Source: Actinocorallia herbida (GTDB taxonomy: Bacteria; Actinomycetota; Actinomycetes; Streptosporangiales; Streptosporangiaceae). From it: 64,000 nucleotides of DNA. The notes below the pieces were generated by a model, which made no database searches, was not told the origin of the DNA, and saw nothing but the letters and a program-made list of their open reading frames with translations. This document shows, in pieces, positions 10,868-30,734 of this stretch; position 1 is the stretch's first letter, and each line of letters starts with the position of its first letter. Both the position numbers and the translations under genes were made by a program. The stretch lies in assembly GCF_003751225.1 (NCBI RefSeq), contig NZ_RJKE01000001.1:7502001-7566000 (forward strand). Reading direction: 5' to 3'.

Positions 10868-11510
10868 ACGCCTCCACCAGACCCGGAAGCTCCTCCAGCG
10901 AGTGAATCCGCATCGTCGGAACACTCCGAGCTTCCGGGTCTTCCCATTGGATCAACCCCCAAGGCCCCCGCCGGATCAACGCCGTCTTCAACCCCACCTC
11001 CACCGCCGGCCGAATGTCATTGTCCAGCCGATCCCCCACATACAAGATCTCGTGCGCCTCACACGGCGCCACCTCCACCAACCGCCGAAAGAACTCCGGA
11101 TCAGGCTTCGACACCCCCCAGTCATCCGACGTCGCCAAGAAGTCCGCCGGAAGCTCCAGCCCCCGCAGGATGCCCCCCGCCCTCACCGTCTGGTTCCCCG
11201 CGATCCCCACCCACAGCCCAGCCTCCCGCAACTTGCTCAAGGCAGGCCGCACATCCGGATACAGGTCCCCTTCCCCGAACCACTCCGGCTGCCCGGCCTC
11301 CGCCCTCTTCTTCCGCTCCTCATACAGCTCAAACCCAGGCCGGAACACCTGGAACGTCTCCCGGTAGTCCAGCCCCCGAGCGATCACCGCCCCGAACATC
11401 GCCGAGAACGCATGCCGAGGCACCCCCAACCAGTCCGCCCACGTCCCATACTCCCGCGTCTCATCCACAAGGCACTCACCAACATCAAACACAACTGCTC
11501 TGATAGTCAT
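10848..11510 (-). CDS. HAD-superfamily hydrolase
   Basis: A 220-aa protein with the four HAD motifs: FDVGECLVDE at the N terminus (nucleophile Asp, with the usual second acid replaced by Glu two residues on), GIAGNQT for motif II, the lysine in WGVSKPDPEFF for motif III, and ILYVGDRLDNDI for motif IV. It probably acts as a phosphatase on a small phosphorylated substrate; the DxxE-type motif I is seen in several family members and need not abolish activity. It is convergent with the XRE/TPR regulator. Within the island it could be cargo or a domestic enzyme carried along. Confidence 0.82.
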   Translation of the reverse strand: MTIRAVVFDVGECLVDETREYGTWADWLGVPRHAFSAMFGAVIARGLDYRETFQVFRPGFELYEERKKRAEAGQPEWFGEGDLYPDVRPALSKLREAGLWVGIAGNQTVRAGGILRGLELPADFLATSDDWGVSKPDPEFFRRLVEVAPCEAHEILYVGDRLDNDIRPAVEVGLKTALIRRGPWGLIQWEDPEARSVPTMRIHSLEELPGLVEAFNAGGC

Positions 11511-11555
11511 GCGAAGAGTTTAGAGCATCCACTCCAGAGGAGACTCTAGGAGACC

Positions 11556-13277: not shown

Positions 13278-13711
13278 CAGTGCCTCCCCACGTCACGACC
13301 ATCTTGGCGCAGAACTGGCGATCACTCCAGTGGGTTTTGGGAGTTCGCTTAGCTTCGGTAGCCGCGCCCAACTGTCTTGCCGAGTTTGGCTGTTTAGGAT
13401 CAAGGGCGGCGGCTTCGCCGCCGCCGGCCGCCCCCGCACGCCGCTTCGGGCGTGCGGCGTGGGCGCCGGTCCCTCAGCGGCGGACGGGGGCGGCCCAGCT
13501 CGTCTCAGCTCCGGTGAACCGATGCGCAGGGGACTACGGACGCGAGATCCTCGTTGGGGGCTCAGGCGCCCCCAGACCCCGCCATCCCAGAGCACTCATC
13601 CGCGCTCTGCTCTCTGTCACGGCTTCTCGCCGTTGCGCGGATGAGCACTCTGGACCGAACCGTGCGGGCTCTGCCTCTCGCTGAAACCAGACCGTCCGTG
13701 AGGATGAGACC
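13278..13711. other. Non-coding gap with several hairpins at the right side of the island
   Basis: I see no convincing gene in these 434 bp. They hold a GGCGGCGGC/GCCGCCGCC hairpin (about 13405-13427), a GCACGCCGC/GGCGTGC hairpin just after it, and the long imperfect inverted repeat at 13587-13653. The composition returns from low to high GC here, marking the edge of the foreign segment. Confidence 0.6.
13587..13653. repeat. Long imperfect inverted repeat
   Basis: CCAGAGCACTCATCCGCGC (13587-13605) and its near-complement at 13635-13653 pair over 19 bp with two mismatches and enclose a 29-nt loop. It could be a terminator, a structured RNA or an element end; nothing in the flanks decides between them. 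Confidence 0.65.
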
Positions 13712-16776: not shown

Positions 16777-17106
16777 ATGTCGTAAGACGTCTATTTCTGG
16801 AAGAGCGCCGAGGGTGATCCCGGCGATGTGTGCGGGGAGCCGGCGGACGAGGAGGGCGACTCCGTCAAGCCGGGTCCGGACGTCTTCCGGTTTCGGGAGC
16901 AGCTCTTGGGACTGTGGCCGGATCTGGCGGACCGGATCTCTCCCTGGGCCGCCGACCCGGGATGGCGGCAGCCGTCGGGGCGCGAGGACCTCGCCGCTTA
17001 CTACGTCGGCCTGACCCTGTCTTGGAGCATCGCCGAGGACACACTCCAAGCCATGATCGACCTGGCCGAAGCCCACCCTCGGTCACCTACGACCCCTAGA
17101 GCATGA
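16777..17106 (+). pseudogene. Hypothetical protein gene with TAA at codon 3
   Basis: From ATG 16777 the frame reads M-S-stop-D-V-Y-F-W-K and then stays open to 17106 with protein-like sequence (FRFREQLLGLWPDLADRISPW, AAYYVGLTLSWSIAEDTL). Related actinobacterial proteins, as I recall them, begin MSHDVYFW-like, so a codon near His3 appears changed to TAA. Either the gene is inactivated or translation starts at a downstream GTG such as 16828, giving 92 residues. The function of the family is unknown. Confidence 0.5.
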
Positions 17107-17191
17107 GCGTGCTCACCTGACTCACCGCCGACCACGGATAGAGGCTCGGGTCGGAGAATGAGTTCGCGGTGGGGTGGTCGTTCTCGGGCTG

Positions 17192-17731
17192 TCAGCGGTG
17201 GTGGAGGAGCCTGGCCAGGGTGCGGCCCATCGGGGTCTGTTGGTATGCGCTTGTGAGGGGGGCTGTGCCGGTCATGGCGTGGTGGCCTAGGAGCCAGTAG
17301 GCGTCGGTCTCGGTGCCGTCCCACAGGGGGGTCATGCCGTCCAGGGAGGGTGTCTTGCGGGCGGCGGGCGGTTTGCCCGCGTTGAGAAGGGCCGCGTCGG
17401 CGGGGCAGCAGGCGACGGGGCGGGGGGCCGCGTCGGCCGGGCGCCACACTGCCTGCCTGGAGGCGGGCGGGTGATACGGGTCGAAGACGCAGGGGCGGTG
17501 GTCCGGGTCGTGCCGCAGCCGCGCGACGGCGATCTCCGCGGCGAACAGTTCGACGAGGCCGCTTTTCAGGTGGAGGTCCGCCGGCTCCTCGAGCGCCCGC
17601 CACTGGTCGCGGTGCAGGCGTGCGGCGGGGATCTCCGCGCCCACGGCGCCTTCGGCCTCCTCCAGTTCGCGGTCGTACGTGTCCATCATGTACTTGGCCA
17701 GTGCCCGGCCCCGTGCGATCCCTTTACTCAC
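17192..17731 (-). CDS. Hypothetical protein
   Basis: A 179-aa protein starting at GTG 17731. The first 80 residues are helical and charged (ALAKYMMDTYDRELEEAE, ELFAAEIAVARLRHD); the rest is Pro/Ala-rich with a conserved-looking end (GTETDAYWLLGHHAMTG, MGRTLARLLHHR). No domain is recognised. It stands alone between two accessory genes. Confidence 0.5.
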   Translation of the reverse strand: MSKGIARGRALAKYMMDTYDRELEEAEGAVGAEIPAARLHRDQWRALEEPADLHLKSGLVELFAAEIAVARLRHDPDHRPCVFDPYHPPASRQAVWRPADAAPRPVACCPADAALLNAGKPPAARKTPSLDGMTPLWDGTETDAYWLLGHHAMTGTAPLTSAYQQTPMGRTLARLLHHR

Positions 17732-17903
17732 GCAGATATGGACGCACCGGGCATCTCGCCGGTTCGCCGGGGTCCCCGGAGGCGCGGTTCGTCACGAGGC
17801 GTTGCGGCCGTAGGCGGGTGTCGCGGCCGGAAGCCTCAAGGGGACGAAGAGCGACGACTCCAGGTCGCGGCCGCGGAAGGCCGGGTCAGCACGGTGAGGG
17901 GTG

Positions 17904-18473
17904 TCAGGAGCGGGTGCCGGGGTGTCGGGCGCGGAGTTCGTCCTCGTTGATGATCTGGTCTATGCCGGGGAGCGGGGAAAGGGCGGCTTCGATGGTGGGG
18001 ACGTCGGCGGGGTCCGCACGGATGCGGAAGGAGTCCGGGATGTCCCCGGGCTCGGCCGCGGCGATCATCCCCGGCGTGTCGGCGAAGAGGACGCGGAAGC
18101 GTTCGAAAGCCTCCTCGCTGGACTCGTAGCGGAAGCCGTGGACTTCCGGGAGGGAGGACAGGCGGGCGGCGACCGCGTCGCGCTGGGCGGGGGTGGTGTC
18201 CTTGCCGCCGCAGGTGGGCTGGGACGACGTGCGGACGCACAGGTAAGCGGTGAGTTGGAAGGTGCCGGCGGGAGGCGCGGCGGCCTCGGTGCGAACGGGG
18301 TCGGGGGCGGCCAGATAGGCGATGGACGCGACCACGGCGGCCGAGGCCAGGGCCGCGGCCAGAGGACGGGGAAGGAGGCGGCGGGTGGTGGGGGCGGCGA
18401 AGTCGGGAACGCGCTCGATGGTTCGGGCGGTCGCCGTGAGGGTGTCGCGGAGGCGGTTCTCGGTGGGGGTCAT
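17904..18473 (-). CDS. Membrane protein with FtsX-like extracellular domain
   Basis: A 189-aa protein whose ATG overlaps the stop of the sigma factor gene in an ATGA, so the two are co-translated. It has a cytoplasmic N terminus (about 1-35), one transmembrane helix (LAAALASAAVVASIAYLAA) and an outside domain resembling the FtsX ectodomain: LTAYLCVRTSS, PTCGGKDTT, LSSLPEVHGFRYESSEEAF and MIAAAEPGDIPDSFRI. The permease part of FtsX is missing. Pairing with an ECF sigma factor suggests a sensory or anti-sigma-like role, but it lacks a recognisable anti-sigma zinc motif; that role is inferred from linkage. Confidence 0.75.
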   Translation of the reverse strand: MTPTENRLRDTLTATARTIERVPDFAAPTTRRLLPRPLAAALASAAVVASIAYLAAPDPVRTEAAAPPAGTFQLTAYLCVRTSSQPTCGGKDTTPAQRDAVAARLSSLPEVHGFRYESSEEAFERFRVLFADTPGMIAAAEPGDIPDSFRIRADPADVPTIEAALSPLPGIDQIINEDELRARHPGTRS

Positions 18474-18982
18474 CGCTGGGGCTCCAGGTGGCGGGAGAGG
18501 GATGCGAGGGCGCGGGAGACCGTGGATTTGGCGGTGCCGCGGCTGATGCCCATCGCGGTGGCCGTCTCCTCCTCCGACAGGTCGAGGAAGTAGCGCAGGA
18601 CGAGGGCTTCGCGCTGGCGCGGGGCGAGGCGGTGAAGGGCGGCGAGCACCTCGCGGCGGTCCTCGCCGAGGATCGCCTCGGACTCGGCCGACCAGACGGG
18701 CGGCTCCAGCGCGCCGAGGAACGGGAGGCGTCTTCGGCGCAGCAGCGAACGGCACCGGTTGAGGACCGCGGAGCGGACGTAAGGGAGGGCCTTCGACGGG
18801 TCCCGCAAGGACGGCCAGCGTCTGTAGAGCCCAAGGAACGCCTCCTGGACGACGTCCTGGGCCGCCTCCCTGTCGCCGACCATGAGGAACGCCATCCGGG
18901 TGAGCCCCAAGGCGTGTTCCCGGTAGAGCGAGGAGAACGACCCCTCGTCCGCGCGGCGGGGGGCCGTCGTTTCAGTGGTCAT
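18470..18982 (-). CDS. ECF RNA polymerase sigma factor (SigE-family-like)
   Basis: A 170-aa sigma-70-family factor from ATG 18982. Region 2 contains LYREHALGLTRMAFLMVGDREAAQDVVQEAFLGLY in two adjoining blocks (residues about 18-52), with the conserved DVVQEAF core helix. Region 4 contains LAPRQREALVLRYFLDLSEEE and a helix-turn-helix ending GTAKSTVSRAL. It should direct RNA polymerase to a small regulon. It is translationally coupled to the FtsX-ectodomain membrane protein, a linkage seen in other actinobacteria. Confidence 0.88.
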   Translation of the reverse strand: MTTETTAPRRADEGSFSSLYREHALGLTRMAFLMVGDREAAQDVVQEAFLGLYRRWPSLRDPSKALPYVRSAVLNRCRSLLRRRRLPFLGALEPPVWSAESEAILGEDRREVLAALHRLAPRQREALVLRYFLDLSEEETATAMGISRGTAKSTVSRALASLSRHLEPQR

Positions 18983-19494
18983 GTCCCAGAGACGCCGCAC
19001 CGCCCCGGAGGTTGCCTCCCCGGAGCGGAATTCTCGCAGACGGAGGGCTCGGGCGGAGCTCGGCGACCGGCCCCTCCGCACTGGGGGCGAAGGGGAGAAG
19101 GCCCCCTGCGCCAACAGGAGGGCCTTCTCGAGTGACGGCGTCCGGCTCAACAGACGTGCGTCGCCGCCCCGCCGCAAGAGCGCGGGGCCACCCCCACTGT
19201 GCTTCTCGTCGGTGCCATCCACGAATCGCGGCGTGCGGTAGCCGCCATCTCATCGTCCGGATGGAGCCCTCAACAGGGGCAAGGGAGAATGTTCGACATT
19301 TTCCGGATCGGATTCCGCAGGAAAACACAAGACGATAATTGTTCGGTATCTCCTGCTTGATTTGGTTCTGGTGAGGTTTCAGAGGATCCTGGGTCCGGGC
19401 TCCAGAAGCCGGACAGCGCCAACTGTCCGGGAATCGCTTCTGTACCAGAAAGTCACTGAATGTCCGGCTCAATGAACTGCAAAGGAGCAGATTC
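18983..19494. other. Gap with hairpin upstream of the sigma gene
   Basis: No gene is supported in these 512 bp between the divergent sigma factor and small membrane protein. A strong hairpin, GAGAAGGCCCCCTG (19095-19108) with CAGGAGGGCCTTCTC (19115-19129), has a single-base bulge and looks like a terminator, which is odd between divergent genes. The segment 19260-19490 is AT-richer and probably holds promoters. AAAGGAGCAG just before 19495 is a ribosome binding site. Confidence 0.5.
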
Positions 19495-19863
19495 GTGCGC
19501 ACATCGGTGTGCTCTGCCTTCATGCCCGAGGTCCATTTCGGGCTTCTGGTCCTCGCGACGGTGGCCGGTGGCACCCTCACCCTCTCGGGAACACCGCTAG
19601 GCGAGGCATTCATCATCGTCATGGCGACCCTGGTCGGCGGCGTGGAGGTCTCCCGCCGTGTCACCGGATCTCTGCCGTGGGTCCGCATCAGGATCGCGGT
19701 CGTGATCCTGATCCTCGTGCTCGTGGTCGGACTCATCGTGGCCGGCTTCCCGCCTCTCATCGTCGTCTTGGGCCTCCTCGCGACCGCCGACGCGGTGGCC
19801 GGGGCCGCCCGACGACTCACCACCCCCGCAACCGTCGTACCCCTCACGGTCTTCGCCGCGTGA
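19495..19863 (+). CDS. Small membrane protein of the NB-ARC unit
   Basis: A 122-aa protein from GTG 19495, preceded by AAAGGAG. It has three or four hydrophobic helices (VHFGLLVLATVAGGTLTL, AFIIVMATLVGGV, VVILILVLVVGLIVAG, LIVVLGLLATADAVAG) and little else. It is followed 21 bp later by the HTH gene and then the NB-ARC gene, all in the same direction, so it probably belongs to one operon and could be a membrane partner or effector. No family is recognised. Confidence 0.6.
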   Translation: MRTSVCSAFMPEVHFGLLVLATVAGGTLTLSGTPLGEAFIIVMATLVGGVEVSRRVTGSLPWVRIRIAVVILILVLVVGLIVAGFPPLIVVLGLLATADAVAGAARRLTTPATVVPLTVFAA

Positions 19864-19883
19864 GGGGATCCTTCAAGCCCGTC

Positions 19884-20153
19884 ATGGCCCGTCCAGAAAA
19901 GCCCGTCACAGGCGACGAGCCCATCGCGCGATTCGCCAGGAGCCTGCGCGCCGAGCGGGAGCGCGCCGGGATCACCTACCGGGCCATGTCGATCCGCTGC
20001 CACTACGGCGTCACTTCATTGAGCCAGGCCGCCAGCGGGAGCAAGCTGCCCATCTGGCCGCTCGCGCAGGCGTATCTCACCGCGTGCGGTGTGCCCAAGG
20101 CCGACCTTCCCCGGTGGCACCGCCAATGGGAAGAAGCCGACCGATGTCGGTGA
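19884..20153 (+). CDS. Small XRE-like HTH protein
   Basis: An 89-aa protein from ATG 19884. The sequence (IARFARSLRAERERAGITY, SQAASGSKLPIWPLAQAYL, WHRQWEEAD) is that of the short XRE-type helix-turn-helix units common ahead of actinobacterial STAND proteins. It resembles residues 1-80 of the next protein, suggesting duplication. Its last 10 bp overlap the start of the NB-ARC gene, so the two are likely to be translated together. Confidence 0.65.
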   Translation: MARPEKPVTGDEPIARFARSLRAERERAGITYRAMSIRCHYGVTSLSQAASGSKLPIWPLAQAYLTACGVPKADLPRWHRQWEEADRCR

Positions 20154-23100
20154 CGGATCCCGGATTCACCGACGCCCGCAGGTCCGTCGCCGCGTTCGCG
20201 CGCGGCCTGCGGGCGGTCCGCGAGAAGGCGGGCACGCCGCCGTACCGCAGCATGGCACGGCTGGCCAACTGCTCGGTCTCCAGTCTGGCCACGGTGACGC
20301 GAGAGGACCGCCTGCCCACATGGGAGATCGTCGAAGGATTCCTGCGGGCGTGCGCCGTCGAGCCCGGCGATCTCGAGCTCTGGCACCGACGCTGGGTCGA
20401 CGCGCGCTCGCTCCGCGACGAGTTCGGGCTGCGCACGACGGGGCGAAGCGACGGTCCAAGACAGCTGTTCGCCGCGCGTCTGAGCCGTCTGTTCGTTCTC
20501 GCGGGATCCCCGCCGATGCGCACGGTCATCGCACGCAGCCAGCACCTGCGCTCCCCCGGGCGAGAACCGCAGCTCAGCGTGCAACGGGTCAGCGATTGGC
20601 GCAGAGGGATCTCCATTCCCACGGATCTCAGCGCGCTTCTCGCCCTTGTCCGGGCTCTCGGTCTGGTGCACGCCCAGACAGGTGGGTACACGACACCGGA
20701 ATTCGAACTACTGCTGGATCCCGAGGAATGGCGGCGGCTGTGGCGAGAATGCCGCGCTGAGAAGAAGACCCAGTCGTCGCCGAGCAGGACTCGGATCGGC
20801 GTGCTTCCGCAATTCGCCGACGCCTTCGTCAGCAGGCAGATCGACGCCGAACTCGAGGCGCGCTTCTCCCGGGCGGACGCGGCGCCCACGCAGGTGCTCA
20901 CGGGCATGGGCGGGGTCGGCAAGACGCAGATCGCCGCCGCCTGCGCCAAGCGCGCCTGGCAGCGCGGAACGTTCGAGGCGCTCGTCTGGGTGGACGCCTC
21001 CCGCCGCGCGACGATCAAGGGAGGCTATGCCGCGGCCGCCCAAAGGCTTGACCTCTGCCTCGGCGATGATCCTGACCAGGGCTCCCATGCCTTTCTCGAA
21101 TGGGTGCAGGCTTCGACGACACCGTGCCTGATCGTCCTGGACGGTCTGCGCGACCCCGCAGATCTGCGCGATCTGTGGCCCGCCGCCGCGGGCGCGCACC
21201 GCGTCATCGTCACCACCCGCCGACGCGACGCCTCACTTTCCGGGTATGGGCGGCAGTTCCTCGACATTCCCGTGTTCACCTTGCCCGAGGCGAAGACCTA
21301 TCTGACGGCGCAGTCCACCGTTCGTGGAAGTGCCGAGACCTCGGCGAATCTGGAGGCGCTCGCCGAGGGTCTGGGCTTTCTGCCGATGGCTCTCGCCCAA
21401 GCCTCCATCGTGCTCCGCGATCTCGACCAGAGCTGCGCGACGTACCTGACCCGGCTCGCCGACCCCCGTCTGCGCCTGGCACAGCTGCTGCCCACACCGG
21501 ATGCCCTCCCCGACGATCACCATCACACCGTCGACGCGGTGTGGAACTCCTCGATAGATCTCGCGGACCGCGCTCGTCCCGCCGGAATGGCGGGGCCTCT
21601 GCTGAACGTCCTGGCGATGCTCGCGCCCGATGGCGTCCCCACCGAGATCCTTCGCAGCTCCGCGCTGCGCGCCCACCTGGCCGCCCGTGACCCCGCGCCG
21701 GAGAATCTCCCCTCCCCCCATGCCGATGAAGCGGCCGAAGGGCTGCGCGTCCTGCACCGCCTCGGCCTCATCACCATCACCGACGGCGCCGACTCCCCGC
21801 ACTCCGAGATCAGGCTTCACAGGCTCCTCCAGCGCACGGTTCGCGAAAGGCTCCCCGCGGAGCGGTTCACCGAGGCGGCGCTCGTCGCGGCGGACGCGCT
21901 ACGGGAAGTTTGGCCGGAGAGCGAGGCGCACCCCCTTGCCAAAGCCCTGCGCGAGAACACCGTGGCGCTCCGCTCGGTCGCCGAGTCCGCGCTCTGGCGG
22001 CCTGACGGCGCCCATCCCGTGGTCGCGCACCTGATCGCCAGCCTCGGCGCGGTGGGCGAGGCCGTCGCCGCCCGCATCGAGTGCGCCAAGGTCGTGGCCT
22101 CCGCGGAACGCCTGCTCGTTCCCGACCACCCTTACACGCTCACCGTCCGGGCTGCCCTCGCCCTGTGGGTGGGGGAGGCCGGCGACGCCCAGGCGGCCAT
22201 CGACGCCTACGCACGCCTGCTCGCCGATCGCGTCCACGTCCTCGGACCCGACCACCCCGACACCCTCGCCACCCGCCACCACCTGGCCCACTGGAGAGCC
22301 AGAGCAGGGGACATCACAGGAGCCATCACCACCGCAGAAGACCTCCTCACCCAACGAATCCGCCTCCTCGGCAACGACCACCCCGACACCCTCGCCACCC
22401 GCGAGGCGCTGGCCTGCTGGACGGCCTGGACCGGGGACCCGGCGGGCGCGGCCTCCCTCGCCTCGACGCTGCTCGCCGATCGTGTCCGTGTCCTCGGACC
22501 CGACCACCCCGACACCCTCGCCACCCGCCACCACCTGGCCGACTGGACCGGGGCGATCGGCGACGCGCGCAGCGCGGCCGAGCGGCACGCACGGCTCCTG
22601 GCGGACCGCCAGCGACTCCTCGGCCCGAGGCATCCGGACGTCCTGGCCAGCCGCGACGCGTACGCCCTGTGGGTGGGGGAGGCCGGCGACGCCCAGGCGG
22701 CCATCGACGCCTACGCACGCCTGCTCGCCGATCGCGTCCACGTCCTCGGACCCGACCACCCCGACACCCTCGCCACCCGCCACCACCTGGCCCACTGGAG
22801 AGCCAGAGCAGGGGACATCACAGGAGCCATCACCACCGCAGAAGACCTCCTCACCCAACGAATCCGCCTCCTCGGCAACGACCACCCCGACACCGCGGCC
22901 GTCAGGGCGGATCTGGCCCGTTGGCAGGAGCTGGCCGGGCTCTCCCCGCTTCCGCAGGGCAAGCGTTCCAGCGCAGGGTCGCTCGCCCTCCGGGTGCTCC
23001 TCGGTGCCCGGCTTCGCGGCCTCCGCGAGGCCAAGGGCATCTCCCGGGCGAAGGCCGGGCAGGCCCTCCGCGCGTCAGGTTCCAAGATCAGCCGGATGGA

Positions 23101-23827
23101 GAGCGGCGAGGTGCTCTTCCGGCACCGGGATGTCGTCGATCTCCTCTCCCTGTACGGCGTGACGGACTCCGAAAAGCGCAGGGAGATGGCGGAGCTCACC
23201 AAACGCTCCAACGCACGCAACTGGTGGCGTGAGTACAGAGACGTGGTGCCACGCTGGTTCGAGAGCTACATCGGCCTCGAGGATTCCGCGATCCGCATCC
23301 GCCTGTACGAGGCGCACCTCGTCCCGAGTCTGCTGCGGACCGAGGACTACGAGAGGCAGGTCACTCGCCTCAGTGATCGCCGGATCTCCCCGGCTGAGAT
23401 CGACAGGAGGATCGAGGTGCTCGCCGCGCGACAGCGCCTGCTCGTCTCCGACCAGGCGCCGCACTACTGGGCGATCATCGACGAGGCCGTGCTGCGCCGT
23501 GGTTTCGGCAGGCGGGGTGGAAGGAAGATGATGCGCGCTCAGCTGAGGCGGCTGATCGAGCTGAACGAACGACCCAACGTGATCGTACAGATACTCCCGC
23601 TCACCCACGGCGAGCGGGGGACCGCGGTCGGCTCCTTCAACGTCCTTCGCTTCGCCGAGCCGGAGCTGCCCGACATCGTCTATCTCGAGCAGCTCACCAG
23701 CGCGCTCTACCTCGACCGGCGCCACGACACCGACAGCTACCTGGCCGCCATGGAGACGCTGGCCCTGGAGGCCCATCCCCACACGCGCACCGAGCGCATT
23801 CTGACCGCCATCCACGACGAGCTGTGA
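20144..23827 (+). CDS. NB-ARC/TPR STAND ATPase fused to XRE-DUF5753 regulator
   Basis: A 1227-aa multidomain protein. Residues about 5-85 and 95-190 are XRE-like helix-turn-helix regions. The NB-ARC ATPase follows: Walker A GMGGVGKT (about 254), Walker B LIVLDGL (about 328), VIVTTRRRD, the FLPMALAQA (GxP) motif and LHRLLQRTV (MHD position). Kinesin-light-chain-like TPRs span about 660-930, with repeated GPDHPDTLATR. Residues about 945-1005 form another XRE domain (GSKISRMESGE), and about 1015-1227 match DUF5753, the Scr1-type domain (RIRLYEAHLVPSLLRTEDY, LIELNERPNVIVQILPL). The two halves are usually separate genes. It could be a signalling or antiphage switch; that is inference. It overlaps the upstream HTH gene by 10 bp. 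Confidence 0.85.
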   Translation: MSVTDPGFTDARRSVAAFARGLRAVREKAGTPPYRSMARLANCSVSSLATVTREDRLPTWEIVEGFLRACAVEPGDLELWHRRWVDARSLRDEFGLRTTGRSDGPRQLFAARLSRLFVLAGSPPMRTVIARSQHLRSPGREPQLSVQRVSDWRRGISIPTDLSALLALVRALGLVHAQTGGYTTPEFELLLDPEEWRRLWRECRAEKKTQSSPSRTRIGVLPQFADAFVSRQIDAELEARFSRADAAPTQVLTGMGGVGKTQIAAACAKRAWQRGTFEALVWVDASRRATIKGGYAAAAQRLDLCLGDDPDQGSHAFLEWVQASTTPCLIVLDGLRDPADLRDLWPAAAGAHRVIVTTRRRDASLSGYGRQFLDIPVFTLPEAKTYLTAQSTVRGSAETSANLEALAEGLGFLPMALAQASIVLRDLDQSCATYLTRLADPRLRLAQLLPTPDALPDDHHHTVDAVWNSSIDLADRARPAGMAGPLLNVLAMLAPDGVPTEILRSSALRAHLAARDPAPENLPSPHADEAAEGLRVLHRLGLITITDGADSPHSEIRLHRLLQRTVRERLPAERFTEAALVAADALREVWPESEAHPLAKALRENTVALRSVAESALWRPDGAHPVVAHLIASLGAVGEAVAARIECAKVVASAERLLVPDHPYTLTVRAALALWVGEAGDAQAAIDAYARLLADRVHVLGPDHPDTLATRHHLAHWRARAGDITGAITTAEDLLTQRIRLLGNDHPDTLATREALACWTAWTGDPAGAASLASTLLADRVRVLGPDHPDTLATRHHLADWTGAIGDARSAAERHARLLADRQRLLGPRHPDVLASRDAYALWVGEAGDAQAAIDAYARLLADRVHVLGPDHPDTLATRHHLAHWRARAGDITGAITTAEDLLTQRIRLLGNDHPDTAAVRADLARWQELAGLSPLPQGKRSSAGSLALRVLLGARLRGLREAKGISRAKAGQALRASGSKISRMESGEVLFRHRDVVDLLSLYGVTDSEKRREMAELTKRSNARNWWREYRDVVPRWFESYIGLEDSAIRIRLYEAHLVPSLLRTEDYERQVTRLSDRRISPAEIDRRIEVLAARQRLLVSDQAPHYWAIIDEAVLRRGFGRRGGRKMMRAQLRRLIELNERPNVIVQILPLTHGERGTAVGSFNVLRFAEPELPDIVYLEQLTSALYLDRRHDTDSYLAAMETLALEAHPHTRTERILTAIHDEL
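22159..22390 (+). repeat. 232-bp direct repeat, copy 1, in the TPR region
   Basis: Identical on inspection to 22663-22894, offset by 504 bp (168 codons), in frame. It encodes ALWVGEAGDAQAAIDAY through LLGNDHPDT. It contains AGA and other codons rare in the surrounding genes. Confidence 0.9.
22663..22894 (+). repeat. 232-bp direct repeat, copy 2, in the TPR region
   Basis: Second copy of 22159-22390. Recombination between the copies would remove exactly 168 codons and leave a shorter but open TPR array. Confidence 0.9.
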
Positions 23828-23908
23828 CCGCGGCCGGGCGGGGCCGTCTCCCGGCGCCTCCGCTCAGGAGAAGAACCGGAAGAGACCGGCTCCTCCTCAG
23901 GAGCGGTG

Positions 23909-24232
23909 TCAGACCGGGACGGTGGCCGAAGCGGCGGTGGCGATCTCGTCGACGGTCTCGAGGGGGATCGTGACGGCGAAGTCCCAGGTCTCGTCGTCCT
24001 GGCCGACGAGGATGACGGCGTTGCCCTCGTGCTGGACCCAGAACGCGGGGGCGCCCGCGCAGGTGCCCGCGCCGATGGACCCGGAGGTCTCCCAGTCGGT
24101 GTCGCGGATGCCGGTCAAGCGGGCGAACTCCGCGGGGATCGCCCGGATGTTGATCTCCCAGCCCGCGCCGCAGAGTTTCACCGTGGCGACCGGGTCCATG
24201 TCTCGCCCGGCCTCGAACGTCATGCTCACCAT
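23909..24232 (-). CDS. Hypothetical protein downstream of the NB-ARC gene
   Basis: A 107-aa protein; the start ATG 24232 is chosen because GGGAGGATG lies just upstream. The sequence (VKLCGAGWEINIRAIPAEF, APAFWVQHEGNAVILVGQD, TWDFAVTIPLETVDEI) is globular and mixed alpha/beta, without a signal peptide or known motif. It converges on the NB-ARC gene. It does not match the DUF397 proteins that often accompany DUF5753 regulators, so I do not call it their toxin. Confidence 0.6.
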   Translation of the reverse strand: MVSMTFEAGRDMDPVATVKLCGAGWEINIRAIPAEFARLTGIRDTDWETSGSIGAGTCAGAPAFWVQHEGNAVILVGQDDETWDFAVTIPLETVDEIATAASATVPV

Positions 24233-24329
24233 GGGCTCATCCTCCCGTATCGCGGCAAGTGAGATGTCCGCGGAGGCAGCCACTCAACCAGACATGGGGC
24301 CCACAGGGATCAAATACGGCGAAAACTCT

Positions 24330-25442
24330 TTACGCGGACGGCAGATAATGCGTCTCGTTCATCGACCTGACCACGGCGGGGCCGTCGTCGTACCAGTCGA
24401 CGGTGCACAGCGACGCGGTGTCGAGATGCACCCGGTACAGGATCGTGTCCGGGGCGTCGAGGGCGAGTTGCAGCATCGTCTTGATCGGCGTCACGTGCGA
24501 GACGACCAGGACGGTCTGGTGCCGGTAGCGCACGAGCAGCTTGTCCCGCGCGACCGAGACCCGCTGGGCGACGGAGGTGAAGCTCTCCCCGCCGGGCGGG
24601 GGGTAGCCGGAGTCCGACAGCCAGGCGGCGAGGTCGTCGGGCCAGCGCTCGGCGACCTCGGCGAAGGAGTGGCCCTCCCACGCGCCGAAGTCGGTCTCCC
24701 GGAAGCCCTCGTCGGTGCGGATCTCCGCGCCGGTGACCGCGGCGACGGCCTTGGCGGTGTCCTGGGCGCGGCGCAGCGGGGACGCGACGATCACGTCGAT
24801 CCCGGCGTTCGCCAGGTACCGGGCGGCGGCCTCGGCCTGGGCGACGCCGACCTCCGTCAGGGGGATGTCCCCGACGCCCGCGAAGCGCCGCTCGACCGAC
24901 AACGGGGTCTGGCCGTGCCTCAGCAGCAGGGTGCGGGTCGGGTCGGTGCTCGGGGGCACCCAGCCCCCCTTGCGGGGCGGCTCGGGCGCGGCGGGCGGCT
25001 CGGCCGCGGACGGCGACCAGGTCTCGCCGCGCGCCGCGGCGTCCATGGCGGCGTTGGCCAGGGCGTCGGCGCGGGTGTTGCGGGCGCGCGGGATCCACGT
25101 GTAGGAGATCGCGGCGAAGCCGGACGCGGCGTCCCGGGCCTCCAGCGCCAGCGGCTTCATGTCCGGGTGCTTGATCTGCCAGCGCCCCGACATCTGCTCC
25201 ACGACGAGCTTGGAGTCCATCCGGACCTCCACCCGCGCGCCGGGGTCGAGTGCCGCGGCGGCCCGCAGCCCCGCGATGAGGCCGCGGTACTCCGCGACGT
25301 TGTTGGTGGCCCGGCCGATGGACTCGGCGACCTCGGCGAGCAGCTCACCGGTGAGGGCGTCGATGACGACCGCCCCGTACCCGGCGGGGCCGGGGTTGCC
25401 GCGTGAGCCCCCGTCGGCCTCGATGACCAGCTTGCGGCTCAC
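24330..25442 (-). CDS. Bifunctional RNase H / acid phosphatase (CobC-like)
   Basis: A 370-aa fusion starting at GTG 25442. Residues 1-145 are a type I RNase H-like domain: IEADGGSRGNPGPAGYGAV, NVAEYRGLI, VRMDSKLVV and the later NTRADALAN, giving the usual acidic set. From about 170 on is a histidine phosphatase: LLLRHGQT (catalytic His), ERRFAGVGDIPLT and VVSHVTPIK (second His). The mycobacterial counterpart removes RNA from RNA:DNA hybrids and has alpha-ribazole phosphatase-like activity. It is the last gene of a three-gene operon, with a GTGA overlap to the zinc-ribbon gene. Confidence 0.92.
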   Translation of the reverse strand: MSRKLVIEADGGSRGNPGPAGYGAVVIDALTGELLAEVAESIGRATNNVAEYRGLIAGLRAAAALDPGARVEVRMDSKLVVEQMSGRWQIKHPDMKPLALEARDAASGFAAISYTWIPRARNTRADALANAAMDAAARGETWSPSAAEPPAAPEPPRKGGWVPPSTDPTRTLLLRHGQTPLSVERRFAGVGDIPLTEVGVAQAEAAARYLANAGIDVIVASPLRRAQDTAKAVAAVTGAEIRTDEGFRETDFGAWEGHSFAEVAERWPDDLAAWLSDSGYPPPGGESFTSVAQRVSVARDKLLVRYRHQTVLVVSHVTPIKTMLQLALDAPDTILYRVHLDTASLCTVDWYDDGPAVVRSMNETHYLPSA

Positions 25443-26182
25443 AGGCCGGACTCGGGGGTGCGGACGAGGATGCGGCGGCACTCCTCGCAGCGGACGACGT
25501 CGTCGGCCGCGGCGGCCCTGATCCGGTTGAGGTCCGAGGTGTTGAGCGCCAGGCGGCAGCCCTGGCACTGGCCGCGGGTGAGCGCGGCGGCGCCGACCCC
25601 GCCGAACTGGTCGCGCAGCTTCTCGTACAGGCCGAGGAGGTCGGCCGGGATGTCCCCGGCGACGCCCTTGCGCGCGTCGGCGGTGAGCGAGGACTGGCCG
25701 GCGATCTCCTGCTCGGCCTTGTCCTTGCGCTCGTTCAGCGCGGCGAGGGAGGCGTCGAGCTCGCGCTGGTCGGACTCGACGGCGCCGACGCGCCCTTCGG
25801 CCTCCTCGCGCCGCTCCATGATCTCCAGGACGACCTCCTCGAGGTCGCTCTGGCGGCGCTGGAGGGAGGCGATCTCGGACTGGAGGGAGGCGAGGTCCTT
25901 GGCGGAGGTCACCAGCCCCGAGTCCAGGCGCTTGGCGTCGCGGTCGGCGCGGGTGCGGACCTGGTCGACGTCCTGCTCGGCCTTGACCTGCTCGCGGTCG
26001 AGGTCGCCGAGCTCGGTGCGGGCGCCGATGAGCCTGTCGCGCAGTTCGGCGATCCGGCCCTCCAGCGCGGTGAGCTCCGCGATCTCGGGGAGGGTGCGGC
26101 GGCGGTGGGCGAGCCGGTCGAGGGTGGAGTCGAGTTCCTGGAGGTCGAGCAGACGGATCTGGTCTCGGGGTGCGGCTTTCAC
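25439..26182 (-). CDS. Coiled-coil C4-type zinc-ribbon protein (DUF164-like)
   Basis: A 247-aa protein from GTG 26182. Residues about 10-175 form a long coiled coil rich in Glu, Arg and Leu. The end carries two CxxC knuckles, CQGCRLAL and CEECRRILV, that form a zinc ribbon. This matches a family widely found between Nif3-like and RNase H genes in actinobacteria; it may bind nucleic acid, but the role is not settled. GTGA overlaps join it to both the upstream Nif3 gene and the downstream RNase H/phosphatase gene, so all three are co-translated. Confidence 0.88.
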   Translation of the reverse strand: MKAAPRDQIRLLDLQELDSTLDRLAHRRRTLPEIAELTALEGRIAELRDRLIGARTELGDLDREQVKAEQDVDQVRTRADRDAKRLDSGLVTSAKDLASLQSEIASLQRRQSDLEEVVLEIMERREEAEGRVGAVESDQRELDASLAALNERKDKAEQEIAGQSSLTADARKGVAGDIPADLLGLYEKLRDQFGGVGAAALTRGQCQGCRLALNTSDLNRIRAAAADDVVRCEECRRILVRTPESGL

Positions 26183-27009
26183 TGGACTCCTTCGGCGGCG
26201 TGGGTCCACGCGTCGGTGACGAGCGTGGACACCAAGGTCTTGACATGTGGGCTGAGGAAGGCGGCGAGGTCGGCCAGCCAGGGCCACTCGGTCGCCCAGT
26301 GGGCGGCGTCCACCAGCGCCATGGGGCCGCTCTCCAGGGACTCGGAGACGGGATGGTGGCGCAGATCGGAGGTGAGGTAGACGTCGGCGCCCGCGGCCCT
26401 CGCGGTGTCGATCAGCGAGTCGCCCGCTCCCCCGCAGACCGCGACGGTCCGCACGGTGCGGCCGGGGTCGCCCGCGGCGCGCACGCCCCAGGCGGTCTTG
26501 GGCAGTGCGGCGGCGGCGCGCGCGGTGAACTCGCGCAGCGTGACGGGTTCTGGAAGCTCCCCGATCCGGCCGAGGCCCCTTCTGGGGTCGGCGGGCGAGG
26601 GCTGGAGCGGGCGGAGCGCCCCGGTCACGCCGACGGCCCTGGCCAGCGCGTCCGACACGCCGGGATCGGCCACGTCGGCGTTGGTGTGCGCGGTGTAGAG
26701 CGCCACACCCGAGCGGATCATCCGGTGGACCGTCCGGCCCTTGGGGGTGGTCGCGGGCACGCCGTGGACCCCGCGCAGGAGCAGCGGGTGGTGGGTGATC
26801 ACGAGCTGGGCGCCGCCGGCGATCGCCTCGTCCACCACCGCGGTGACGGGATCGACGGCGAGCAGCACCGAGGTGACTTCGGATTCAGGGTCGCCGCACA
26901 CGAGTCCCACCGCGTCCCAGGCCTCCGCCCAGGCCGGGTCGTATCGGCCCTCGATCCGGCAGATCAGTTCGGAGAGACGCACGTCCGAAAGGTTATCGTG
27001 GTTTCGCAC
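26179..27009 (-). CDS. Nif3-like dinuclear metal-centre protein
   Basis: A 276-aa protein of the Nif3/YbgI family. Metal-binding histidines are visible in ITHHPLLL, YTAHTNADV, SDLRHHPVSE and DAAHWATEW. Family members form hexamers and probably act as GTP cyclohydrolase-like or other hydrolases; the substrate is unknown. The start is GTG 27009 or, more likely, GTG 26982, which gives the usual VRLSELI beginning; a GATAACCT stretch just ahead would suit a leaderless transcript. First gene of the operon. Confidence 0.88.
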   Translation of the reverse strand: MRNHDNLSDVRLSELICRIEGRYDPAWAEAWDAVGLVCGDPESEVTSVLLAVDPVTAVVDEAIAGGAQLVITHHPLLLRGVHGVPATTPKGRTVHRMIRSGVALYTAHTNADVADPGVSDALARAVGVTGALRPLQPSPADPRRGLGRIGELPEPVTLREFTARAAAALPKTAWGVRAAGDPGRTVRTVAVCGGAGDSLIDTARAAGADVYLTSDLRHHPVSESLESGPMALVDAAHWATEWPWLADLAAFLSPHVKTLVSTLVTDAWTHAAEGVQ

Positions 27010-27119
27010 CGGTCTTCCTGGATCCGAGCCGGAGCGCTACCGTGCGGACGACACCGCGAGCACGGGGATCGAACGCGATCAAGGGGATCAAACTCGGCCG
27101 TGGAATCGTTGGAGTGTTC

Positions 27120-27497
27120 GTGAAGTCACCGTTCCGCCGCCGCAAGCGGTCGAAGAAGGCCGAGGAGCTGCGCCGCAAGGCCAAGCTGGAGGCCAAGATG
27201 TCCGTGCCCGAATGGGCCCATGAGGGCACCGGAGGCGGCGGCCTGATGTCGGCGCTGCGCGGTGACGGTGAGGCGGGGGCCGGATTCGGCGCCGGGATCT
27301 TCGAGGATCTGCACGCCGCGTTCAGCGGGGCGAAGAAGATCCAGCTCCAGGAGCAGGAGGCCGAGAAGCTCCGCCGCGTCGACGACCATGAGCAGACGGG
27401 CAAGGCGCCCAAGAGCACCCGTCCGGATCTCGATTCCGGGCGCATCCGGATCACCCCGCGGCGGGCCCCGTCCGCCGAGGAGTCCGACGAGAGCTGA
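27120..27497 (+). CDS. Hypothetical protein, DUF6191-like tail
   Basis: A 125-aa soluble protein with a very basic start (KSPFRRRKRSKKAEELRRK) from GTG 27120. The C-terminal part (EDLHAAFSGAKKIQLQEQEAEK, then DLDSGRIRITPR) resembles the small actinobacterial DUF6191 family; I am only moderately sure. An upstream in-frame start at 27042 is possible. It diverges from the Nif3 operon and ends before a short hairpin. Confidence 0.6.
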   Translation: MKSPFRRRKRSKKAEELRRKAKLEAKMSVPEWAHEGTGGGGLMSALRGDGEAGAGFGAGIFEDLHAAFSGAKKIQLQEQEAEKLRRVDDHEQTGKAPKSTRPDLDSGRIRITPRRAPSAEESDES

Positions 27498-27501
27498 ACC
27501 G

Positions 27502-27519
27502 GCCGCCCTCACGGGCGGC
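27502..27519 (+). terminator. Short hairpin after the DUF6191-like gene
   Basis: GCCGCCC (27502-27508) pairs with GGGCGGC (27513-27519) over a 4-nt loop, 4 nt after the stop codon. No T run follows. Confidence 0.4.
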
Positions 27520-27591
27520 GCATGACCTTCCCGCCCTCGGGATCGGCCGACAGCGGCCGTCCCGGGGGCGTTCGGCTCTATCGGCGCGGCC

Positions 27592-28683
27592 TCAGGTGCG
27601 GGTGACCACCTTGTCCGGGTTCTTACGTGCGGGGCGCAGCCCGTGCTGGAGGGTCGCCTCGTCGAGCCAGGCGCCCAGCCGCGGCCAGGTGGTGGCGCGG
27701 GCGGCGCGGCCGGTGAGCACGCCGAGGTGGCTGCCGGGGGCCGTGGCGAACCGCACCTCGGGGCTGCCGGTGAGCAGCCGGGTGAGCGGGTGGACCGCGG
27801 CGAGCGGCGCGAAGGCGTCGTCGCGTCCGGCGAGCACGAGGACCGGCACGCGGACGTCGGACAGGGCGATCCGCCGCCCGCCGACGAGCACGGCGCCGGA
27901 GGCGAGGTCGCCGCGGCGGAAGAAGCGGGTGGCCGCCTGTGCGGAGGCGGGGTCGGCGGTGACGCGGGCGGCGAACGCCTCGCGCGCCTCGGCCTGGGCC
28001 AGGAAGTCGGCGTCGTCGAGATGCAGCAGCAATTTCACCGGACGCGTCAGACGTTTATCTATTCCATAGGTCTCATAACCGTGCAGCAGCGATTCAGGCG
28101 CAATTCTCTGCACCGCGCCCGGGAGCACGCCGCGGCTTCCGGCGATATGGGCGACCGGGTCGGCGCCCGCGGGGACCGCGGTGCGGTCGACGGGTGCGGC
28201 GAGTGTGGCGAGGGAGGCGAGCGGCAGGCCGGGGTCGGCCGCCGCGGCGAGGACCGCGAGGATGCCGCCGAGGCTCCAGCCGACCAGCTGAACGGGCTGG
28301 CCCCCCGCGTCGCGGCTGACGCGGCGGACCGCCTCGGGGATCGTCTCGCCGATCCAGCGGGCCGGGCCGCCCGGGTGCTCCGCGGTGTCGGCGGGGGCGA
28401 GATCCAGCAGGTGGACACGCCTTCCCGTGGCGACGAGATGGGCGGCGAGGCTGCCGCCGCGGCGCAGGTCGAACGCCCAGGCGGCGCCCGGCACGGGCGG
28501 CGGGACGAGCAGGACCGGCGGTCCCGTGGCGATGACGGAGGCGGCTGGACGGTACCGGCGCAGGGCCCCGGAGCCGCCGACCGGATCGGACGGGGTCGGG
28601 GTCAGGTCGGCGACGGCCCCGTGCCGCAGACGGTGCGCGGCGTTGGCTGTCGCGTCGCGGATCTTTTTCGGGGAGGGAAACAT
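27592..28683 (-). CDS. Alpha/beta hydrolase (PHA synthase/depolymerase-like)
   Basis: A 363-aa protein from ATG 28683. The fold is shown by VLLVPPPV (strand and oxyanion region), the nucleophile elbow VGWSLGGI (Ser), VPVLVLAGRDDAFAPL (catalytic Asp strand) and GSHLGVLTG (His). The overall length and the segment between elbow and Asp resemble the PhaC-like hydrolases of actinobacteria, although PHA synthases have Cys at the nucleophile, so an esterase or acyltransferase is more likely. No signal peptide. It diverges from the RelA/SpoT homologue. Confidence 0.78.
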   Translation of the reverse strand: MFPSPKKIRDATANAAHRLRHGAVADLTPTPSDPVGGSGALRRYRPAASVIATGPPVLLVPPPVPGAAWAFDLRRGGSLAAHLVATGRRVHLLDLAPADTAEHPGGPARWIGETIPEAVRRVSRDAGGQPVQLVGWSLGGILAVLAAAADPGLPLASLATLAAPVDRTAVPAGADPVAHIAGSRGVLPGAVQRIAPESLLHGYETYGIDKRLTRPVKLLLHLDDADFLAQAEAREAFAARVTADPASAQAATRFFRRGDLASGAVLVGGRRIALSDVRVPVLVLAGRDDAFAPLAAVHPLTRLLTGSPEVRFATAPGSHLGVLTGRAARATTWPRLGAWLDEATLQHGLRPARKNPDKVVTRT

Positions 28684-28955
28684 CACCACAGTATTCCACG
28701 ACCAATCACGAGTCGATTTCAAGGACCGAACCCGGACACCTGTGACCTGCTCTTACTCTTACCTATCAGACAAATCCGTGTCGCTTATCACACGGCCATG
28801 TCGACCGCGTTAAATCAACCTCCCGGCGCGGACGGTGACGAGGGACCGGTCCAGTACAGGTCCGGACCCGGTCACGAATGCGGACCTAACGGCCGGTCCG
28901 CCCTGCACAGCCGCCCGGTCGCGCGCATAATGACAGCTACAGCCAGTCACTGATC
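28684..28955. promoter_or_regulatory. Divergent intergenic region with inverted repeat
   Basis: This AT-richer gap carries CCGTGT (28776-28781) and ACACGG (28790-28795), a perfect inverted repeat around 8 nt, a possible operator. CATAAT at 28927-28932 may be a -10 element for the RelA/SpoT gene, whose ATG follows at 28956 without a clear ribosome binding site. Confidence 0.4.
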
Positions 28956-30734
28956 ATGTTCCGGGCGGTGTCTTTGACGATCATCAGACCGACGGCGAAG
29001 GAGCCGAGCACGACGCGCTGGAGCGCGCTCGGCAAGGTGCCGGGACGGGCCGCATCCGGCCCCGCGCAGGCGGTCGAGCCGCTCATCGCGGCGTTCCGCG
29101 CGGCCCATCCGGCGGCCGATCCGGCCGAGTTGCGGCGGGCCTACGAGGTCGCCGAGCGGATGCACCGCGGCCAGATGCGGAAGTCGGGCAATCCTTACAT
29201 CACCCATCCGCTGGCGGTCGCGACGATCCTCGCGGGGCTCGGGATGGACCGGACCTGCTTGATCGCCGCGCTGCTGCACGACACCGTCGAGGACACCGCC
29301 TACACGCTGGGCGAGGTGCGCGCGGACTTCGGCGACGAGGTCGCGGTGATCGTCGACGGGGTGACCAAGCTGGACGGGGCGCGCTGGGGCAAGGAGACCG
29401 CGGAGGCCGAGACGTTCCGCAAGATCGTGCTGGCCGCCGCCGCGGACCTGCGGGTGCTCATCATCAAGCTCGCCGACCGGCTGCACAACCTGCGCACCCT
29501 GGGCGCGCAGCCGCCGCACAAGCGGGAGCGGATCGCCCGCGCGACCCTCGACCTGCTCATCCCGTTCGCCGACCGGCTGGGCATCCACGTCCTCAAGCGC
29601 GAGATGGACGATCTGGCGTTCGCCACGCTCGATCCCGAGGCGTTCGGCGAGACGCAGGCCAAGGTGCGCGAGGTGCTTCGGCTCGTCGAGGCCGAGCTCG
29701 GCCCCGCCGCCGCGATGCTGCGGAGCGCGCTCGCCGACAACGGGGTGCGCGCCGAGGTCGAGCTGCGCCCCCGGCATCTGCACAGCGTGCACAAGACGCT
29801 GCCCGGCGACCTCGCGGGCCTGCGCACCAGCGAGGTCATCCGGTTCCTCGTCCTCGTCGACGGCTCCGAGCAGGACTGCTACGTCGCGCTCGGCGCGGTG
29901 CACGCGGCGCTGCACCCGATCACCGGCCGGGTGAAGGACTACATCGCGATCCCCCGTTTCAACCTCTACCGCGCGCTGCACACCGTGCTGATCGGCCCGG
30001 ACGGCGACATGCTGGACGTGATCATCCGGAACCGGCGGATGCACGAGGTGGCCGAATACGGCCTCATCGCGCACATCCGCCAGGGCAGCGGGGGCGGGGC
30101 CGCCGAGGAGTTCGCGGGCCGCCGCGACCTCGCCTGGCTGGCCCGGCTGCTGGCGTGGCAGTCCGACGCCCCGTCCGCGGCGTTCCTGGACGGGCTGCGC
30201 ACCGACCTCCGCGAGGGCAACATGCCGATCTTCACCCCCGAGGGCCTGATCGTCCCGCTGCCGCCGCGCTCGACCGCCCTGGACTACGCCTACGCGCTCG
30301 ACCCGGAGACCGGCGAGCACAGCATCGGCGCCCTCATCAACGGCCGCCTCGCGCCGCTGTCGGCCGAGGTGCGGCTCGGCAACGTGGTGGAGATCCTCAC
30401 CGCGCCCGACGCCTGCCCGGGACCGGACTGGCTGGAGTTCGTGCGGACCGCCCAGGCCCGCGTGCACATCCAGGGCTTCCTCGACGCCCAGGCCGCCGAC
30501 GAGCGGGCGCGATCCGGCCGGGAGGCGCTCAGCGCGGCACTGGCCGCCCAGGGCGTCGACCTGCTCGCCGCCGAGACCGCGGGCGACTCCCTCGGCGTCG
30601 CCAGGTCGCTCGGCCACAGCAGCCCGGAATCCCTCTACCTCGCGCTCGCCGACGGCGCCCTCCCGCTGGACGACGCCTTGTCCCGCTTCGCCACCAGGGA
30701 CTTCGAGCCCGACCATTCCGCGCCGCCCGAATGA
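28956..30734 (+). CDS. Small RelA/SpoT homologue, HD hydrolase domain intact
   Basis: A 592-aa (p)ppGpp metabolism protein, shorter than the usual 750-800 aa because the C-terminal ACT region is missing; a TGS-like segment (GNMPIFTPEGLIVPLPPRST) is present. The HD domain has YITHPLAVA, LLHDTVEDT (about 105-113) and KLADRLHNLRTL, so alarmone hydrolysis is likely. The synthetase region keeps GRVKDYIAIPRFNLYRALHT, but the canonical D-L-x-A-I-R segment reads EVIRFLVLV, losing the metal-binding Asp and the Arg by my alignment. It may be mainly a hydrolase. A second, full-length Rel is expected elsewhere. Confidence 0.85.
   Translation: MFRAVSLTIIRPTAKEPSTTRWSALGKVPGRAASGPAQAVEPLIAAFRAAHPAADPAELRRAYEVAERMHRGQMRKSGNPYITHPLAVATILAGLGMDRTCLIAALLHDTVEDTAYTLGEVRADFGDEVAVIVDGVTKLDGARWGKETAEAETFRKIVLAAAADLRVLIIKLADRLHNLRTLGAQPPHKRERIARATLDLLIPFADRLGIHVLKREMDDLAFATLDPEAFGETQAKVREVLRLVEAELGPAAAMLRSALADNGVRAEVELRPRHLHSVHKTLPGDLAGLRTSEVIRFLVLVDGSEQDCYVALGAVHAALHPITGRVKDYIAIPRFNLYRALHTVLIGPDGDMLDVIIRNRRMHEVAEYGLIAHIRQGSGGGAAEEFAGRRDLAWLARLLAWQSDAPSAAFLDGLRTDLREGNMPIFTPEGLIVPLPPRSTALDYAYALDPETGEHSIGALINGRLAPLSAEVRLGNVVEILTAPDACPGPDWLEFVRTAQARVHIQGFLDAQAADERARSGREALSAALAAQGVDLLAAETAGDSLGVARSLGHSSPESLYLALADGALPLDDALSRFATRDFEPDHSAPPE

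Follow-up and report, generated by a model that had tools for sequence, protein, structure and literature searches.

The 64,000-nucleotide stretch of DNA analysed here (the window, positions 7,502,001–7,566,000 of the 9.8-Mb genome of Actinocorallia herbida, which is assembled in a single contig) contains on its + strand three closely spaced genes. They code, in this order, for a small membrane protein (122 residues, 19495–19863), a small helix-turn-helix (HTH) protein with a Pfam HTH_31 domain (89 residues, 19884–20153) and a large protein of 1227 residues (20144–23827) in which an NB-ARC ATPase with tetratricopeptide repeats (TPRs) is continued by an XRE-DUF5753 regulator. A preliminary description of the locus had proposed this fusion together with its membrane and HTH partners, and the single open frame and the Pfam and NCBIfam assignments confirmed it. 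The first gene starts with GTG, with an AAAGGAG motif placed by eye 6 nt upstream, and the other two start with ATG, the last one sharing 10 bases with the small HTH gene. The membrane protein has a strong hydrophobic stretch at residues 56–106 and weaker ones besides, and it gave no Pfam match above cut-off, no NCBIfam match and no match in plasmid records. The small HTH protein is 42% identical over 77 residues to the N-terminus of the large protein.

The domain order of the large protein is HTH_31, HTH-like, NB-ARC, DUF7779, TPR, XRE and DUF5753. The N-terminal HTH_31 domain lies within residues 1–100 (20144–20443), is of the same kind as the small HTH protein and was also detected when the 196-residue N-terminal frame was scanned alone (E 9.1e-8). 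It is followed by a second HTH-like region at about residues 120–235 (20501–20848; HTH_3 below cut-off, E 0.0065); in several NB-ARC relatives without the fusion, a conserved stretch near the N-terminus aligns with it. Further on are the NB-ARC domain (residues 251–408, 20894–21367, E 5.6e-9), DUF7779 (residues 483–574, 21590–21865, E 5.4e-7), the TPR array (about residues 681–932, 22184–22939, seven stretches of TPR_12), the XRE/HTH_31 domain of the fused regulator (residues 953–1012, 23000–23179) and DUF5753 (residues 1039–1221, 23258–23806, E 1.6e-45), which has diverged at conserved positions. HTH_31 matched the whole large protein with an E value of 1.2e-20 in two stretches, the better one being residues 953–1012.

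A closer look at the NB-ARC domain (36.1 bits, cut-off 23.5) qualified the earlier statement that its motifs are complete. Walker A (GMGGVGKT), TTRRRD and a GLPL-like GFLPMAL are present; however, the second aspartate of Walker B is replaced by Gly334 (VLDG, codon 21143–21145), where 18 of 19 aligned relatives have DD and the remaining one DN. Thus, among the features of the NB-ARC clade of STAND proteins, the domain itself, Walker A and the repeats are found in the large protein but the acidic pair of Walker B is not. A search of solved structures by sequence gave no relative for the XRE-DUF5753 part and, with the N-terminal part, only a designed repeat protein matching residues 577–625.

No stop interrupts the frame between 19712 and 23827. 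The junction between the end of the TPR part and the regulator is placed at 22940–22987 (+ strand), by inspection of the frame and comparison with unfused relatives. The TPR part terminates in ...VRADLARWQELAG, which resembles the C-termini of some of these relatives (...LTTRVNLADWQRKAAES, ...LTIRRNLAAWRERLAGA), and the regulator begins directly after it. Several of 14 unfused NB-ARC-TPR relatives end 21–30 residues past the last HPD/HPE motif, so that the start of the regulator about coincides with their C-terminal end, and others carry longer tails. Third-position G+C remains at 0.85–0.90 in windows spanning the junction, and G+C by codon position is steady. From the likeness of the TPR end to unfused C-termini, the open frame and the steady codon-position G+C, the large protein consists of two whole proteins fused end to end, as seen in one assembly. 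The three forward frames are all free of stops at 22880–23060, and a single missed insertion or deletion would therefore not restore an ordinary gene end. Chance or a frame artefact was rejected as the main explanation in view of the strong homology of both halves, the one frame, the steady codon-position G+C and the junction without a stop. Upstream of the junction, an exact 232-base repeat in the TPR coding region (22159–22390 and 22663–22894, + strand, the second copy 504 bases downstream of the first) is a sign of recent duplication or conversion.

The C-terminal residues 948–1227 were compared with NF058600, the model of the Sco1979 family, and matched its positions 4–280 of 280. The score was 335.7 bits with the whole protein and 341.2 bits with the isolated part 22955–23824, just under the cut-off of 350. 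Because the match spans nearly the full model, the fused tail is, as judged by profile comparison, a whole regulator nearest to the Sco1979 family, and not of the Scr1 type to which it had first been likened. In Streptomyces coelicolor, SCO1979 is followed by a gene for DUF397 and is reported to act in regulation, according to the passages seen of one paper (PMC10364602); it is cited as autoregulatory, after Zhu et al. 2020, in passages of another (PMC12565409).

Conservation within the tail was assessed in a set of 24 XRE-DUF5753 sequences, from which five more distant paralogues and duplicate rows had been dropped. Positions at least 90% conserved among the other sequences (23 stand-alone relatives) were counted as conserved. 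The fused HTH retains 33 of 36 such positions (0.917; the lowest of the 23 stand-alone relatives has 0.919), whereas the fused DUF5753 retains 63 of 80 (0.79), the lowest of all 24, the next being 69 of 82 (0.84). Residues 1062, 1065 and 1158 of DUF5753 are replaced at positions that are identical in all other sequences with a letter there, out of 28. The end branch of the fused tail measures 1.49, against a median of 0.19 in the tree of 24. The linked DUF397 gene that the preliminary description suggested looking for is missing: none lies near the fused gene, and the nearest of the 37 DUF397 places in the genome is 301,433 bases away. A DUF397 lies no more than 1.5 kb away at 30 of the 41 DUF5753 places of the same genome. 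The unequal conservation of HTH and DUF5753, taken with the absence of DUF397, fits a tail whose DNA-binding output would be largely kept and whose former control domain would have changed. The closest stand-alone paralogue in the source genome is 56% identical.

As a separate observation, two DUF5753 matches in genome G000 (11213–11749 and 9795364–9795900) have equal scores, lie on the same strand near the contig ends and have DUF397 matches beside them; together they mark a direct repeat of the contig ends, which might be some 16.6 kb of overlap left untrimmed when a circular genome was assembled.

The rarity of the fusion was evaluated among the best-scoring candidates of each genome, namely the best 16 with the whole protein, 3 with residues 1–669, 5 with residues 803–1227 and 9 with residues 850–1020, and all counts of genomes given for these searches hold among the matches listed; as the candidates were limited and the thresholds strict (1e-90, 1e-40, 1e-15), a fusion of lower similarity could be missed. 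The whole protein matched in 32 of 41 genomes, its own included, and end to end only in its own. Residues 1–669 matched at E ≤ 1e-40 in 64 of 341 family genomes (own included). No XRE-DUF5753 was found in the protein or in the surrounding 9–14 kb at 19 loci taken from these matches, nor at two further NB-ARC loci. Residues 803–1227 matched at E ≤ 1e-90 in 8 of 338 family genomes (own included), the TPR part being covered only in the own genome, and residues 850–1020 matched at E ≤ 1e-15 in 130 of 394 class genomes (own included), with the own match spanning both parts. Among 72,556 plasmid records, 84 matched residues 1–669 and 202 matched residues 803–1227 at E ≤ 1e-10, none of the matches covering 80% of either query. 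A scan of genome contigs with residues 1–669 yielded no confirmed relative. Overall, no second fusion was found in 40 relatives, 338 family genomes, 394 class genomes and the plasmid records, where the two halves occur separately; the XRE-DUF5753 proteins met elsewhere were all separate, as had been expected for DUF5753 regulators.

Several candidates, among them the listed matches with a long reach from one part into the other, were examined individually and rejected. Seven frames of 317–416 residues with an XRE match reaching into the TPR query (L085 and L180–L186, minus the second frame of L183) gave no TPR or NB-ARC match, and two TPR frames running past the TPR part (L187 and L188, with an in-frame TGA) gave no XRE match. 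Other long DUF5753 frames of 982, 787 and 535 residues (L078, L079 and L082) contained only HTH and DUF5753 in Pfam. A literature search joining 'NB-ARC' and 'DUF5753' found nothing, DUF5753 occurring in three papers and subscription journals lying mostly outside its coverage, which agrees with the preliminary description, whose author knew of no described example. Neither half is unusual in itself; their combination, like the order of the module, was not met in the literature passages seen.

The same-family relatives of the source genome, Nonomuraea and Herbidospora among them, revealed a related gene order. When 338 family genomes were searched with the membrane protein, three weak matches appeared besides its own. 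Two of them, in Herbidospora mongoliensis (L121, 5618–9800) and Nonomuraea sp. NEAU-A123 (L120, 4069–7140), stand at the head of the same succession of membrane protein, small HTH_31 protein and HTH_31-headed large protein; the third (G097) has no such gene nearby and was missed by a profile of the membrane protein. The small HTH protein of the window matched the small HTH proteins of these two modules with values of 3.9e-21 and 7.0e-18, respectively, and their large proteins with 4.6e-20 and 3.5e-15. These large proteins, of 1160 and 733 residues, respectively, matched neither NB-ARC nor DUF5753 at E values up to 0.05 and gave only NTPase-like matches below cut-off (CPT, 6.5e-4; nSTAND3, 0.017). 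Since the order recurs with other large-protein bodies, what recurs is, to judge from these comparisons, a pair formed by the membrane protein and the HTH, accompanied by a body that can change; XRE-DUF5753 is an addition in the source genome. The earlier suggestion that the tight operon is a complete system gained support: the three-gene order is found in H. mongoliensis and NEAU-A123. DUF5753 stands outside this conserved order.

Searched against 394 class genomes, the membrane-protein profile found another 11 weak matches. An HTH of the module kind lies within 1.5 kb of four of them and is lacking at the other seven; for comparison, 31 other loci, 368 kb in all, contained 2 such HTHs when a less strict threshold was used. 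The HTH profile was built from the three module loci and is independent evidence only for the 11 weak matches, larger regions having been examined for five of them. One of the four adjoining HTH proteins, behind a weak membrane-protein homologue, has a VWA domain at its end (L137, 3496–6626), an arrangement that recalls vWA conflict systems. Homologues of the small HTH protein occur in 47 of 140 family genomes (own included), and about half of the matches listed lie in frames of more than 700 residues. Among eight that were picked, five belong to the nSTAND1 proteins, and WD40-type repeats occur in four of the five.

The chromosomal site was compared in two congeners. In one of them (G002) the flanks are collinear with window positions 17958–19032 and 23908–29114, and the 4.9 kb between them is replaced by 2.6 kb carrying a different HTH_31 protein, whose C-terminus has no assignment, and an epimerase/dehydratase-like gene (L093, 5587–7701). 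In the other (G001) the side of the RNase H/phosphatase gene is collinear and is followed by about 10 kb without a blastn match to window 6000–40000. The site thus varies between congeners, in line with an exchange of its cargo. Many unfused homologues at this locus, named in the preliminary description as what would speak against the fusion, were not found in either congener. The flanking proteins scanned are an ECF (extracytoplasmic function) sigma factor, an FtsX-ECD protein, a 124-residue protein without a match and an RNase H/histidine phosphatase protein.

Farther upstream, window positions 10285–11504 and 13378–13656 are 94–96% identical to G002, more than the 72–87% of the collinear DNA closer to the operon, which suggests mobile DNA or sharing in the recent past. 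A 578-residue open frame at 11556–13292 (− strand) is unusually low in G+C (0.57, 0.36 and 0.49 by codon position) and gave no Pfam match at E 0.001.

The intergenic region upstream of the operon (19223–19494) has 54% G+C, compared with 71% for the window, and an Rfam scan of 17000–25000 gave nothing. This region contains a perfect 8+8 palindrome, CCGGACAG-N6-CTGTCCGG (19409–19430, no strand assigned), as a candidate operator. It is the sole exact copy found in the 9.8-Mb genome, so that the operator search led to no regulon.

The large protein can be regarded as an ATP-driven sensor of the kind used in immunity. The reading that we tentatively favour, at somewhat less than even confidence, is a STAND switch whose DNA-binding output is provided by a captured regulator. 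The TPR array would sense a ligand or a partner, the NB-ARC domain would change its state with ATP, and the change would be relayed to the DNA-binding domains. The captured full-length Sco1979-like regulator would serve as the DNA-binding output under NB-ARC/TPR control, which would replace the former DUF397/DUF5753 control of the tail. As for the N-terminal HTH_31 domain and the small HTH protein, they may control the operon's own module or form pairs with it; the small membrane protein may be its partner at the membrane, as anchor, signal source or effector. Several observations weigh against this scenario. The fusion is seen in one genome only, and ten other DUF5753 places of that genome also have no close DUF397. 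To judge from related ATPases, the glycine in Walker B (Gly334) might make ATP hydrolysis less efficient. Dinucleotide shuffling of the upstream region produced a palindrome as good as the candidate operator in 46 of 1000 cases, so that it is not very unlikely by chance, and no regulon accompanies it. A more sober view is that the tail could be in general decay, as its HTH lies at the bottom of the range and its branch is long.

Other explanations share part of this evidence. The operon may instead be a conflict or anti-phage module, in which TPR/NB-ARC would sense an invader, the membrane protein would be the effector and the HTH domains would only autoregulate. We consider this rather unlikely, although it is the strongest of the alternatives: membrane protein and HTH keep their order and the third protein varies in its body, a weaker membrane-protein homologue precedes the HTH protein with VWA, and the site differs between congeners. 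In addition, VWA, AP-ATPase-TPR and DUF397 parts are reported for actinobacterial conflict systems in the passages seen of Kaur et al. 2020 (PMC7159879). However, PADLOC gave for the large protein only weak HTH-type matches (HTH_VI, E 0.011; RmrA, E 0.035), nothing for the other two operon proteins and no convincing match for four relatives; the membrane protein is without an assigned family in Pfam and NCBIfam, and the sigma factor and the other flanking proteins listed above do not favour such a module either. An accident, by which the stop separating a TPR gene from an XRE-DUF5753 gene was lost or mis-sequenced and the tail has no separate meaning, is unlikely. A one-base change could remove a stop, the region does rearrange, as its 232-base repeat shows, a repeat that might also cause errors in assembly, and both the occurrence in a single genome and the long branch with its lost conserved positions would be expected of it; nevertheless, none of the 19 unfused relatives has an XRE-DUF5753 gene in the surrounding 9–14 kb, the junction is free of stops in all forward frames, only an in-frame GTG and no start codon with a ribosome-binding site (by eye) precedes the XRE part, and the HTH is still largely conserved.

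Plant nucleotide-binding leucine-rich repeat receptors (NLRs) with integrated domains are the model for two further proposals. The tail might be a bait copied from a cellular regulator family and guarded by the NB-ARC/TPR switch, which we hold to be the least probable of all. A whole regulator fused behind a sensor array, stand-alone paralogues in the source genome (see above) and the missing DUF397 partner would suit such a decoy, as would the XRE-DUF5753-like DNA-binding proteins of Streptomyces phages, found in 13 of 50,697 phage records, several of the 13 being duplicates for a single phage (H11–H23; Samy, Picard, Mojorita, Darolandstone, Success and others). Against it, the conserved DUF5753 positions that are lost are possible interaction sites, the HTH is largely kept, we know of no phage protein that targets the tail, and a single genome carries it. 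By analogy with the same receptors, the operon might belong to an undescribed actinobacterial three-gene class with interchangeable bodies, to which the captured regulator was added as an NLR-like integrated bait, a counterpart of plant NLRs with transcription-factor domains; this is very doubtful, slightly more so than an accident.

NB-ARC switches and XRE-DUF5753 regulators are each present in many copies in actinobacteria, and for most of them we know of no identified triggering signal. Returning to the favoured reading of a switch with a captured regulator, the natural fusion suggests which output one NB-ARC switch may drive and provides a testable handle on both families. The order of membrane protein and HTH with changing bodies points to a modular family, a candidate for phage defence or membrane-coupled signalling.

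With respect to known systems, the C-terminal 280 residues match the Sco1979 family (NF058600; SCO1979 of S. coelicolor) nearly end to end but, unlike its members, they are fused behind NB-ARC-TPR, have a diverged DUF5753, lack a DUF397 neighbour and score under 350. The NB-ARC and TPR part matches the TPR protein of the FxSxx-COOH system (NF040586) with 311.2 bits for a cut-off of 300. The best stretch covers only model positions 16–358 of 830, and the repeats probably raise this score, since residues 1–669 alone give 167.3 bits; an FxSxx ending was found in none of the three operon proteins, and no radical SAM protein among the flanking proteins scanned. The VMAP/vWA conflict systems resemble the large protein in having an AP-ATPase with TPRs, and DUF397 genes are reported beside some of them, as far as the passages seen of the paper describe (PMC7159879). 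They differ in that no MoxR, vWA or VMAP was among the flanking proteins scanned, the wider window not having been searched for them. Actinobacterial HTH_31-nSTAND1 proteins place the same kind of N-terminal HTH_31 before a STAND NTPase; unlike the large protein, they use a different NTPase family, and four of the five picked carry WD40-type repeats. The DNA-binding output proposed here is modelled on the large Streptomyces antibiotic regulatory proteins (SARPs), such as AfsR, in which, in the passages seen of one paper (PMC10972967), a single regulator combines a DNA-binding domain with NB-ARC and TPR (SARP, NB-ARC, TPR), the same three elements that come together in the large protein. Neither BTAD nor Trans_reg_C was among the Pfam matches of the large protein up to E 0.1, and from the absence of BTAD it is, on its predicted domains, not a SARP. 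Where SARPs bind through their own domain, the large protein is predicted to bind DNA through its N-terminal HTH_31 and its C-terminal XRE-DUF5753 domains.

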